DNA from: Marvania coccoides
Taxonomy: Eukaryota > Chlorophyta > Trebouxiophyceae > Chlorellales > Chlorellaceae
Assembly (NCBI GenBank): GCA_963854735.1
Contig: OY978097.1
Span: forward strand, 124,001 to 188,000
DNA length: 64,000 nt
Direction: 5' to 3'
The position numbers and the translations under genes are program-made. The notes under the pieces were generated by a model, which ran no database searches, was not told where the DNA came from, and saw only the letters and a list, made by a program, of their open reading frames with translations. Below, one piece after another: positions 18,556 through 25,437 of the stretch; the first letter of the stretch is position 1, and each line of letters opens with the position of its first letter.

Positions 18556-21500
18556 ATGATGTCTGACAGACTGCGTGCTCTCATGTTTGCTATAATTCTG
18601 CTGGCAGTGCCGCAGACAGCCTTCGCTGCGCGAGTTCTCATTGATGAAACTGAGGTGAGAGCGCAATGCCGTCGATCTGTGGCATTTTTTACATTTTCTG
18701 CGTCAGCGCTTTGTTTTCACCAACAAATGGGGTGGGGTGGGGGGGGAACGGGGGGGGGGGGGGCAAATGCTAACAATCTTGCCACAACTCCCCACGAATC
18801 AGCCCCCTCATTGCGTACACGTATTGATAACATATTGTTTTTTTTTCCTTCAGGCCGCCACCGTCACTGGGGTCATCTACAAGGGCGACGGCACCGCCTA
18901 TTCTGAGACGGTCAACGACGGCACAGGCTTTGCGTGCTCTTATCGGTATCTCAACGAGTGGAGTCGCAAATATTTCGTGGCTATCAACAACGACCAGTGG
19001 GACGAGGGACGCAACTGTGGCCGCTGCATTTTTGCCAAGTGCGAGGACGACTACTGCACCTCCAGCGAAGAGCGCAAGCTGTACGTTGTTGACCAGGTAA
19101 GAATGCATTCGACAAATATGATGATGATTATTATTATTATTATTATTATTATTATTATTATTATTATTATTATTATTATTATTATTATTATTATTATTAT
19201 TATTATTATTATTATTATTATTATTATTATTATTATTATTATTATTATTATTATTATTATTATTATTATTATTATTATTATTATTATTAGCAAGAACACG
19301 ATCACTGGGCCACCACTTTTAAGGGCACTCCGCGCTTTTCCGAGCGTTTCGGCACGTTTCGCCGCATTTAATCAATGCATGGGATCATTAATGTTAGCTT
19401 TATGCTTCAGGCAACTTGAATTGCAGTCTAAACTTTAAATATGGCATCGATGTCCATCGACCCGATCCAGATGCGGCAAATGGAGGCCATGGGGACACGT
19501 GATTATTGTTCAGTGAAGGCCAAGGAATTATTTAAGATGGAGCAGGGCTCAGAACAGTGGCATGATGAGCGGCAACTGCGAGTTACAGCCAGCAGAATTG
19601 CGGTCATCGCTGGGCTCGTTTCACACCCCTCTATCGAGGATGTTCTTCACGAAATATTTAACCCGCCTAAGGTTACCACGCACATGCAGCGGGGGATCGA
19701 TCTGCAGCGCAGCATCGCTGACAATTACATCCTTGATCTTCAGGTAAGCTACTTACCTCCGTTTCTGAAGGCGATTTCGCCCCATTTCACCTGGTTCTAT
19801 CATCTAAATCGCAGAAGAGAAAGGGGGGCGTCTACAAGCTTCACGAAGTTGGCCTTCTCCTGCATCCAGACTACCCGCACTTAAGCGCATCGATGGACTA
19901 CTGGGTGGTGAACGAAGCCAGGTCTGAGGCCTTCATTTTAGAGGTTAAGGCCCCCTCAAGGGAACCTGATGACCTCCCCAGGGCAGCAGAGTGTCAGGTC
20001 GTCATGCAGCTCGCGATTGCCGTGAGCTCTGAGCTCGTGGATTGGCTTGGCAGCCCTCCAAAAGCGGTGGTCGTGGCAGGCGTGGGCGACAATTTGGCGT
20101 TTTGGGACGTGCCTTGGGATGACCAATCGCAGGCTCTGTGGTTCGAACATCTGCTCCCGGCCGCCCACATATTTTATTTAGAAGGAGTGCTGCCCAAACT
20201 GTTGGAAAATGAGGAGCGTCGAGCTTGCGCGGTGGCGGCGGCAGCCCAACGAGCCCGTACGCCTCCACCTGAGCGTTGCCTCCCCCTTCCCGATGACTCT
20301 ATTACGTTGATTACCCCGACTATGGCTGTAGGGAAGGTTGTGCAGCGCCTCAATTCAAATGACCAAGCGGTGATTGTGGGGGTCGAAAGGAAAGGCATTG
20401 TGTTGGACAACAACAAGGTGGTGGACAACAAGAAGCGTAAGCGGCCCGCCAACCCCGAGAACTACGTGGTGCTGCCTCTCTCAGCCCATCTCTGCGTGGC
20501 CCCGTCCGCAACCGGGCAGCGGGTGATGGTGGTCGGCGGTCGTTACATCCGAAATCCGCCGCTGGAGGGCTTCGTGGAGAGCTGGGCCGCGCAATACTCT
20601 CAAATAAAGCTGGATGTGGGTGATGTGGTGGTTTCCGTGAAGAATTCGTACCTTCATGTCAACGAAAAAGGAGCGCAGCCGTTAAAACGCACCATCGAGC
20701 CGGTGCAGGATGTTGAATGTATAAAAATTCCCGCTGATAAATATGACGATTTTCTTTCGCAGCTGCTTGATGGCGGTCAGTTGGATCTTGTCCTGAAGGA
20801 GCCCCACTCACGAGCATCGAAGATTTCTCAACTTGAAAAATTTGTTTCAATGGCGGCAGAGCAAGAAAAAATTACGGAAGACGAGGCTGCTCAAGCTTTG
20901 TGTAACCTTGAATTGTAAATGCGCCTCCCTGGAGATTTTTAATACGTATAATTTGAACACTATAATTTGAACTCTTTGCCGTTGTCCACCGGCACGTTGA
21001 CACAATTTTTACTGCCAGACACTTGGCGCACCTCCTCGTGCGTGTAGATTCTTTATTTAAATTTTTATACTCCATTCTGTATGGGTTTAAGCTCTAAATT
21101 GGAGCAAAGTACAGCGATTCTTGGCCTTCGTACTCTCATCAGTTGAACATTTTTGGGGGTGCGAAACAGTATTATGACACCCTTTGCGCTGGACACAATT
21201 TTTTTTAGTATTATATTTGATAGCTCCGCAGGCTGTTGTAACTTGGCGCGATTGTTTTTGGAGTTTTCACATGCTTGTTGAGATCGGCAGTTCACACACT
21301 TTCAGCGTACAATTGCGAGCCGCCAACACTACGCCCACCGCTTCTTATTAATAAACATTATTTATAATGATTTCTTGAAGCTCGATTAAGGTCCCATTGG
21401 CACGCCTCGTGGAATTGTATGCACTCCTCCAATTTTATTGCACATACAGTTTACATCATTTTCCGGAGAGGAAACACAGTGAATTCAATTCCAAAAATTC

Positions 21501-24500: not shown

Positions 24501-25437
24501 TAGGACAGGTTTCCATCCTCGAGAGGGAAATGCTTCAACAATGGCCGAAAAAGTGGCTCACGCGTGCTGATTATATCCACGGGTGGCATAAACAATCGGA
24601 ATTACGCGCCAGAGAATGGTGTGGCAGGCTGAACCAAATAGGGTGGGTGTTCTTTGCAAGTTGATCACCTCTTTTTCCCAAAATGTGCGAAATTCAGAGG
24701 CTGCTTGCCTTGCAGAGGTTCAATAACATTATACGAATTGTTTAAGACGTGCGACGTCTTCTAAAACACGGTGTGGAGGCCAGAGCTTTCTTAAAAGTGG
24801 TGGCCCAGTGAGAGGCCCCGTGCTTATTATTATTATTATTATTATTATTATTATTATTATTATTATTATTATTATTATTATTATTATTATTATTATTATT
24901 ATTATTATTATTATTATTATTATTATTATTATTATTATTATTATTACGGGACGGCGGCTATGTGAACGTAATTGTTATTATTGAATTTTGATGTTCGGGA
25001 ATAGTTAAATTGTGATACTGTTTCCCCCTTACATTTTTTCTTCGCAGTGTCCAGAGTGTAAGCACGGCGACATCGACCTCAGCATTCCAGCCTACCGCGA
25101 AATCTCTGGCGTCGCTCCCCACCGCCTGCAGTTCTCCTGGAAGTTCGTGGACTGCGGAGACAGCATCAACGGATCCATCATCATGCACCCCAAGGACGGT
25201 GCCAACCCCAACTGGTCCGCGTATTATCTCTCAAACACCAAGGCCCCCCTGGCCTCTGTCTCCATTGACGGGTTACCGCTCACACGGAATACCTACAATT
25301 TCTGGGTTCATTCTGGTCCGATGGGGGCTCCTCCTCACACCATGGAGCTGAAATCCGAAAGCGGAGAGACCGTGACGACTACTGTGGACGACCCTATGCA
25401 GCCTGGGCTGGAGCTGGGAGTTCAGTTTGGCGCATGA
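18556..25437 (+). CDS. Expansin-like secreted wall protein, interrupted by a 5.95-kb intron
   Basis: Exons 18556-18654, 18854-19096 and 25048-25437 join in phase to 243 residues. Expansins loosen polysaccharide walls without hydrolysis. The first exon is a signal peptide (core LMFAIILLAVPQTAFA); an in-frame ATG at 18541 would lengthen it by five residues. The double-psi beta-barrel follows, with NCGRCIFAKCEDDYC and, across the giant intron, VVDQ|CPECKHGDIDLS, the expansin/barwin signature with the catalytic-type Asp. The third exon supplies the C-terminal beta-sandwich (CBM63-like; WSAYYLSNTK, NFWVHSGPMG). Intron 2 (19097-25047) contains two (TTA)n arms and a complete transposon. Both splice sites (CAG|GTAAGA and CGCAG|TG) look sound and the frame is intact, so the gene may still function if the intron is removed. 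Confidence 0.85.
18731..18763 (+). repeat. G-run cluster in expansin intron 1
   Basis: Within 33 bases there are several G-runs (4, 8 and 13 consecutive G) separated by T or AAC. It could form a G-quadruplex in the transcript. It lies about 90 nt upstream of the exon 2 acceptor. Confidence 0.6.
19127..19289 (+). repeat. Left arm of (TTA/ATT)n microsatellite
   Basis: About 54 uninterrupted ATT units, preceded by three ATG units, end directly at the left end of the transposon. Open frames on either strand here are poly-Ile artefacts. The right arm at 24824-24946 has the same strand orientation. Confidence 0.97.
19302..19323 (+). repeat. Left terminal inverted repeat
   Basis: These 22 bases are the exact reverse complement of 24790-24811. 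Identity stops sharply inward of position 19323. Confidence 0.85.
19441..20918 (+). CDS. YqaJ/lambda-exonuclease-family nuclease carried by the transposon
   Basis: Two exons (19441-19743 and 19815-20918; 71-nt GT-AG intron) encode 468 residues. YqaJ proteins are PD-(D/E)xK nucleases related to phage recombination exonucleases. The N-terminal family motif is present: GSEQWHDERQLRVTASRIA (about 36-54), then the RGIDLQRSIADNY helix. Catalytic residues are visible as Asp129 (SMDYW) and E144-V-K146 (LEVKAP), followed by a conserved Gln helix (CQVVMQLAIA). The last 260 or so residues include a basic KKRKRPANPEN patch that could be a nuclear signal and match no domain I recognise. It is tail-to-tail with the transposase and both lie between the terminal repeats. 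A role in end processing or recombination of the element is inference. Confidence 0.78.
20919..21545. other. Central AT-rich spacer of the transposon
   Basis: About 630 bp between the convergent stop codons. It has a short direct repeat (TATAATTTGAAC twice, about 20946-20971) and AT-rich tracts, with no gene or RNA visible. It probably serves both 3' UTRs. Confidence 0.4.
21546..24356 (-). CDS. Mutator-like (MULE) transposase with two SWIM zinc fingers
   Basis: Four exons join in phase: 24356-23982, 23914-23417, 23289-22458 and 22303-21546, giving about 820 residues; the first coding exon is not settled. The N-terminal part has a FAR1/MULE-like Cys pattern (VHIVHGCKFGKK, CPWELVVVG). The catalytic core shows D in FMDATYG (codon near 23574), D in IMIDKSP (near 23254) and E in NNLAES (near 22882), the MULE D-D-E arrangement. 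After it comes a SWIM finger (CDCGADGVCHH, near 22542-22578) and, one exon later, a second SWIM-like motif (CSCPVYDVARVCPH, near 22153-22195). The tail is basic and Gly-rich. An upstream exon near 24490-24590 (ATG with a good GTAAGT donor) would create a TGA at the junction, so either another exon is used or the 5' end is damaged. Confidence 0.8.
24790..24811 (-). repeat. Right terminal inverted repeat
   Basis: Exact reverse complement of 19302-19323. It is followed by 12 bases and then the right (TTA)n arm. Confidence 0.85.
24824..24946 (+). repeat. Right arm of (TTA/ATT)n microsatellite
   Basis: Forty-one uninterrupted TTA units in the same strand orientation as the left arm. The two arms are therefore direct, not inverted, which fits insertion of the transposon into one microsatellite. 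Confidence 0.97.

Follow-up and report, generated by a model that had tools for sequence, protein, structure and literature searches.

Does a gene for a phage-type recombination nuclease, enclosed together with a Mutator-type transposase between inverted repeats, belong to a single mobile element, and what would it contribute there? The question is raised by a locus in the window, the stretch of 64,000 nucleotides analysed here. Lycopene cyclase and FBPase are among the genes of the window, which fits a plastid-bearing host. Positions 19290–24823 comprise a complete DNA transposon of 5,534 bp, which, judging from its sequence, is almost certainly a MULE that carries a YqaJ nuclease as an integral gene. 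The MULE class given in the preliminary description is borne out by the transposase domain, the ends and the 9-bp target duplications.

Ends and copies of the element

The 22.46-Mb host genome contains five full-length copies, four of which are identical over 5,534 bp, and a fifth, on C8, with three substitutions, all of them amino-acid-changing. The ends GCAAGAACACGA...GAGGCCCCGTGC are shared exactly by the five loci, and the flanks of all five differ, which excludes assembly duplicates and establishes the boundaries proposed earlier as the exact ends of the element.

Perfect 9-bp target duplications are found at four of the five copies, three of them being informative. The duplication of the window copy (TTATTATTA, at 19281–19289 and 24824–24832 by flank comparison) lies within a TTA microsatellite and thus does not provide independent evidence there. 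Those of the other copies, as the loci read, are TTATAGTAT, AATGAAAAA and TTTTAGAAA, and no target duplication is present at the full-length copy on C8.

A 22-bp inverted repeat had been described as perfect and terminal. It is perfect, the right arm (24790–24811, minus strand) being the exact reverse complement of the left arm (TCACTGGGCCACCACTTTTAAG, 19302–19323, plus strand), but it is subterminal, with 12 bp outside it at each end. Comparison of the element ends shows that these outer tips (19290–19301, GCAAGAACACGA, and 24812–24823) have GCA in common and little else, and that 29 of the 40 outer bp match overall. In a genome-wide search the 22-mer has 11 exact matches, 10 in the five full-length copies and one in an old copy, as well as one further match with three mismatches. 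The reversed control pattern has no occurrence in the genome, and this, together with the recurrence of the repeat in five copies, excludes a chance inverted repeat.

Both genes are present in all five full-length copies and the exons of each are open, so that a decayed element can be rejected; the spliced frames of the window copy and of the C8 copy contain no internal stop in either gene. The further both-gene copies between matching ends that had been suggested as a check therefore exist. Copies with these ends that lack the nuclease or bracket the transposase alone, which would speak against the pairing, were looked for, and none is among the matches listed for the host genome.

The transposase and the YqaJ nuclease

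The two genes are convergent, YqaJ on the plus strand and the transposase on the minus strand, with a spacer (20919–21545) between their stop codons. Both are open as spliced models, in agreement with their earlier description as intact-looking multi-exon genes.

The predicted transposase gene has five exons, separated by GT-AG introns, and would encode a protein of 833 amino acids. Exons 1 (24478–24516) and 2 (23982–24356) are followed by exon 3 (23417–23914), with the putative first catalytic Asp in FMDATYG, exon 4 (22458–23289), with the second Asp in IMIDKSP, the Glu in NNLAES and the first SWIM-like motif, CDC...CHH, and exon 5 (21546–22303), with the second SWIM-like motif, CSC...CPH, and the stop codon. 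The Mutator D-D-E triad noticed previously is thus recognizable by motif and position. Four Pfam families are listed for the protein, none of them THAP or HTH, and only two pass their cut-offs, MULE (PF10551, 8.6e-10, 39.4 bits against a cut-off of 27.6) and ZSWIM1-3 RNaseH-like (8.7e-10). The two CxC...CxH motifs were found by eye, and no Pfam SWIM model matches at E≤1. A protein database search with the full transposase returned no relatives among 7,993 scored candidates.

The YqaJ gene is predicted to consist of two exons with a GT-AG intron and to encode 468 amino acids. Exon 1 (19441–19743) starts with ATG and contains the QWHDER motif (residues 39–44), while exon 2 (19815–20918) contains, by Pfam and alignment, Asp129, Glu144-x-Lys146, Gln162 and Gln166, a long C-terminal extension and the stop codon. 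The protein matches Pfam YqaJ (PF09588, 1.9e-9) over profile positions 1–147 of 150 and the RecE-like exonuclease family phrog_434 (2.2e-19); its TIGR03033 score of 52.4 is under the curated cut-off of 68.05. The predicted partner protein is a YqaJ nuclease of the RecE/lambda-exonuclease type with the active site residues present, and the D...ExK signature reported at first is confirmed in Asp129, Glu144 and Lys146.

The nuclease core and the D...ExK site are common to the phage RecE/lambda-exonuclease family (PF09588, TIGR03033, phrog_434). In contrast to the phage enzymes, the protein is encoded by a eukaryotic transposon, its gene contains an intron and it has a C-terminal part outside any assigned domain. 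No third gene that could serve as a single-strand annealing partner is found among the open frames of the element. The two structure models of exon 2 have a mean pLDDT near 30 and are too poor for use, and a PDB sequence search with YqaJ gave a best E of 0.27, which is not meaningful.

Age of the pairing and its relatives

Fossil copies in the host genome retain parts of the element. The fossil at C4:287.5–289.9k has 90–94% DNA identity and includes the left end together with portions of both genes, that at C3:928.8–929.4k (76–77%) the left end and the start of YqaJ, that at C13:624.0k (78%) the interior of YqaJ, and that at C8:868.3k (80%) the left end only. YqaJ sequence is therefore present in three older fossils, in two of them with the left end attached, and is not recent cargo. 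The sole other YqaJ gene found in the host genome lies at C4:157110. Its alignment spans no more than 50 residues, at 40% identity, so that it is not a recent donor; on both grounds a recent acquisition of YqaJ from the host is rejected.

In the comparison of copies called for in the preliminary description, the boundaries are identical over the five copies. The substitution rates of YqaJ against the C4 fossil show no purifying signal (dN/dS 1.51, from 9.5 synonymous and 48.5 nonsynonymous changes over 322 of 469 codons), a ratio that is pushed towards 1 by the decay of the fossil itself. The corresponding value for the transposase pieces is 0.46 (186 of 834 codons), and comparison of YqaJ with the C3 fossil gives 0.72 over 108 of 469 codons.

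Relatives of each gene occur in ENA. Sequence P0001 is 68–71% identical to the YqaJ exon (71% over the aligned part), has an open frame in which Asp129, Glu144, Lys146, Gln162 and Gln166 are conserved, and ends at the matching place; the 260–300 or so residues past the nuclease core are largely conserved in it as well. Neutral simulation to 71% identity yields a mean of 5.2 stops and zero stops in 0.4% of 500 runs, a calculation that takes no account of databases favouring open frames. At 80% identity, sequence P0002 corresponds to transposase exon 4, and it continues into the same intron start, SGEKRH, although zero stops occur in 9.6% of the simulated runs, so that the test is weak here. P0001 lies on a 3,584-bp contig and P0002 on a 1,280-bp contig, and since the contigs differ the linkage of the two relatives is not visible. 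In viral_contigs, none of 5 pattern matches to YqaJ exon 2 and none of 10 to transposase exon 4 was confirmed, nor was any of 28 matches to the YqaJ alignment in the bacterial and archaeal genome_contigs.

The closest known design is that of ISL2EU, a PIF/Harbinger-like PHIS group of animals in which, in the accessible parts of the reports, a PHIS-type transposase is paired with a YqaJ protein (PMC4482050, PMC9179366), as the preliminary description had suspected for other lineages. According to the same source, ISL2EU is a DNA transposon, usually of two genes, of which the second codes for a protein with a YqaJ exonuclease domain, and it averages about 4.8 kb as compared to 5.5 kb here (PMC4482050). 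The ISL2EU transposase belongs to the PHIS type and has HTH/THAP domains, insertion duplicates the dinucleotide AT (2 bp), and the group is recorded there from animals only (PMC4482050). The present element, by contrast, combines a MULE transposase bearing SWIM-like motifs with duplications of 9 bp, and its host is probably plastid-bearing. Membership in ISL2EU is therefore rejected.

Among MULEs, a transposase with inverted repeats and a second gene, sometimes antisense, is also seen in MuDR (mudrB), Mutyl (mutB) and Hiun (vanB, vanC), and MULE duplications measure 8–11 bp, mostly 9 bp, as far as the available part of a 50-group survey goes (PMC6446971). In Table 1 of this survey neither a nuclease among the accessory genes nor a group from green algae is named, and its text uses “nuclease”, “chlorophyt” and “green alga” zero times each; some second genes are given in the table as unknown, so that a nuclease among them is not excluded (PMC6446971). 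The available text of an arthropod MULE paper likewise uses “nuclease” zero times (PMC13359780), and, in the parts seen, a clam paper lists an expansion of each of the two domains but draws no link between them (PMC7826175) and a scallop paper counts YqaJ genes together with transposon genes (PMC10225492). In the accessible literature no MULE with a YqaJ gene was found, a family recorded solely in Repbase being possible, and the one transposase–YqaJ pairing described there belongs to an unrelated group of animal transposons. On that partial record, what is new is a Mutator-type element with a phage-like exonuclease gene, the YqaJ pairing in ISL2EU being already known.

Possible roles of the nuclease

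On balance, we favour an autonomous, recently active, two-gene cut-and-paste transposon of the Mutator superfamily with YqaJ as a probable accessory. The MULE transposase, which bears the SWIM-like motifs, would bind the subterminal 22-bp repeats and would cut and join DNA with the target staggered by 9 bp. The RecE/lambda-type exonuclease encoded by the element would be its accessory protein and would most likely resect the DNA strands where excision leaves a double-strand gap, and the resected gap could then be repaired from the sister chromatid, restoring the element at the donor site. Such restoration would raise copy number, and we propose that an enzyme of this kind is kept on a selfish element for that reason. 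A role of YqaJ in the transposition cycle is probable; its specific task there may be donor-gap resection, but this is doubtful.

It is unlikely that YqaJ is passive cargo, captured as in Pack-MULEs and without a role in transposition. Pieces of host genes are often acquired by MULEs, according to the available part of the survey (PMC6446971), an extra gene enclosed by MULE ends is also the arrangement of Pack-MULEs, and the YqaJ ratio against the C4 fossil is not below 1. Pack-MULEs, however, lack a transposase and contain pieces of host genes, whereas here the transposase is present with its exons open in all five full copies, the extra gene is open and common to them, and the search for a donor gene in the host found none. 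The presence of YqaJ in fossils at 76–78% identity and the open relative P0001 with its conserved active site also argue against mere cargo.

Rather unlikely, though less so than cargo, is a structural or cutting role beside the transposase without resection, comparable to TnsA, the second-strand nuclease at element ends, or to the Myb-like end-binder of Harbinger elements. In four other PHIS groups, a Myb/SANT DNA-binding protein takes the place that YqaJ has in ISL2EU, and what the extra PHIS genes do, YqaJ included, is given as unknown in the accessible text (PMC4482050). The largely conserved C-terminal residues past the core could form a binding module, but exon 2, which holds them, gave no usable fold prediction, and the best family matches are exonucleases. 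A passenger that benefits the host by acting against rival DNA (viruses or other elements) is highly improbable. It would suit the phage-like enzyme type and the mention of YqaJ in papers on algal viruses, in the parts available, but a role in transposition accounts at least equally well for the constant pairing of YqaJ with the transposase in all of the full copies.

The repair of the donor site of cut-and-paste elements is generally thought to be left to the host. If YqaJ is instead a resecting accessory, the unrelated PHIS and Mutator groups may, as we tentatively suggest, each have acquired a RecE-type phage exonuclease as a functional partner whose resection steers donor repair and raises copy number, the present element being a young and apparently functional Mutator case. 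Should transposases have been paired with recombination exonucleases more than once, this would point to control of donor repair by some of the elements themselves. A Mutator-type element that is compact and recently active, and of which a 22-Mb genome holds five nearly identical copies, would make the function of such an extra gene testable in a simple system.

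Copies and ends of the element

A search of the genome (G000, with contigs C1, C2 and so on) with the interval 19290–24823 confirmed the exact boundaries that the preliminary description had given for the transposon, and returned five full-length copies: C1:143290–148823 (in the window), C1:2467775, C2:2333517, C4:2123878 and C8:1215102, together with seven shorter diverged pieces. Four of the five are identical across the entire 5,534 bp, and the flanking DNA is unrelated among all five. Perfect 9-bp duplications surround four copies, TTATAGTAT on C2, AATGAAAAA at C1:2467775, TTTTAGAAA on C4 (written in the orientation of the locus) and TTATTATTA in the window; the last falls within a TTA microsatellite, which would give a 9-bp match in any case, and this leaves three of the five copies with an informative duplication. 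The C8 copy (C8:1215102–1220635) is the sole full copy whose compared flanks lack the duplication and the sole one with substitutions, at three positions, each of which changes the encoded residue; this copy may be of greater age or may have undergone rearrangement.

The long microsatellite that holds the window copy lies, by a reading of the window sequence, in an intron of a host gene (18854–19096 and 25048 onward), the exons of which join in frame across the element. The joined host protein gives a DPBB-like match of 25.6 bits, just under the Pfam cut-off of 28.8. The window also codes for lycopene cyclase, FBPase and other genes, the first two of which fit a plastid-bearing host.

The 22-bp inverted repeat is perfect, as described, but it is not terminal, being placed 12 bp inward from each end. 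The outer 12 bp of the two ends have GCA in common and little more; of the outermost 40 bp, 29 are matched between the ends. The exact 22-mer occurs at least 11 times genome-wide, ten times in the five full copies and once at an old, partial copy on C4, and the left-tip pattern is found in the genome at no fewer than six places, namely these same copies; the reversed control of the 22-mer has none in the genome. Allowing three mismatches, the genome-wide pattern search found at least one place, a lone inverted repeat (L072, C6:491116–491137) that resembles the end of a fossil on C3 and may be what remains of the end of an older member of the family. Among the matches listed for the genome, those to the right-hand 400 bp are confined to the five full copies, and neither short non-autonomous derivatives with the element's ends nor transposase-only elements between them, the case that the preliminary description had set against its reading, were seen.

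The two genes and their relatives

The YqaJ gene (19441–19743 and 19815–20918, plus strand) encodes a protein of 468 aa and the transposase gene (five exons between 24516 and 21546, minus strand) one of 833 aa; all five introns, one in the former and four in the latter, start with GT and end with AG. Residues 39–170 of the YqaJ protein match Pfam YqaJ (PF09588, 1.9e-9, over the cut-off) and residues 19–205 the RecE-like exonuclease family of PHROGs (2.2e-19); the match to the NCBIfam lambda-exonuclease subfamily (6e-14) lies below the curated cut-off. The transposase matches Pfam MULE (PF10551, 8.6e-10) and ZSWIM1-3 RNaseH-like (8.7e-10), both over cut-off, with two further weak Pfam matches far under theirs.

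The nuclease sequence reads SASMD129, E144VK146, Q162 and Q166. The D-D-E triad described for the transposase can be read as D in FMDATYG, D in IMIDKSP and E in NNLAES, while its reported SWIM fingers correspond to two CxC...CxH motifs, none of the Pfam SWIM models having scored. By motif, these residues are putatively catalytic in both proteins, and the CxC...CxH motifs are putatively SWIM. Elsewhere in the genome, a 313-aa open frame (L054, C6:1164760–1164999) possibly represents another transposon family; it matches models of ISL3-type and MULE transposases, in each case below threshold.

In a database of 5.8 billion proteins, YqaJ has one relative (P0001, from ENA; 68% by BLAST, 71% by alignment), a 356-aa open frame related to exon 2, which conserves the active-site residues and ends at the matching place. 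Alone, it scores 15.7 bits against Pfam YqaJ (cut-off 22), as expected of a piece without the half of the domain that exon 1 encodes. The full transposase has no relative in this database; its exon 4 has one (P0002, from ENA, 80%), which reads through into the same intron start. For P0001, neutral simulation to 71% identity gives about 5 stop codons, with zero stops in 0.4% of 500 runs; for P0002, such a simulation is a weak test, with zero stops in 9.6% of runs. Both figures are subject to the bias of databases toward open frames, which is outside the model.

Age of the YqaJ pairing

The old copy at C4:287498–289878 comprises the left end together with stretches of the two genes (90–94% DNA identity), the fossil at C3:928.8–929.4k has the left end joined to the YqaJ start (76–77%), that at C13:624.0k is an interior piece of YqaJ (78%) and that at C8:868.3k is 164 bp of left end (80%). 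The fossils with both left end and YqaJ indicate that YqaJ already adjoined this end long before the current burst. The left end is kept at three of these places (C4, C3 and C8), and no fossil right end was found in the genome among the matches listed; with so few cases, this bias may be chance.

By codon, YqaJ gives dN/dS of 1.51 against the decayed C4 fossil (322/469 codons) and 0.72 against the decayed C3 fossil (108/469), and the transposase pieces 0.46 against the former (186/834); taken alone, these ratios are no evidence of selection on YqaJ.

One other YqaJ gene was found in the genome (L055, C4:157110–157544, a 587-aa open frame), possibly a host gene, with a higher Pfam score than the element's protein. 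It was rejected as a recent donor because just 50 residues align, the two being otherwise unlike.

Comparison with other elements and proposed role

By its transposase domain, ends and duplications the element is a MULE. It resembles ISL2EU, an animal transposon group, in having YqaJ as its second gene, but the ISL2EU transposase (PHIS-type) belongs to another superfamily. The function of the extra ISL2EU gene is stated as unknown (PMC4482050). In the available part of a survey of 50 MULE groups, the accessory genes named include mudrB, mutB and vanB/C and no nuclease, some second genes being given as unknown (PMC6446971).

The most likely role of the YqaJ nuclease would be to resect the donor gap after excision, so that the element could then be copied back from the sister chromatid.
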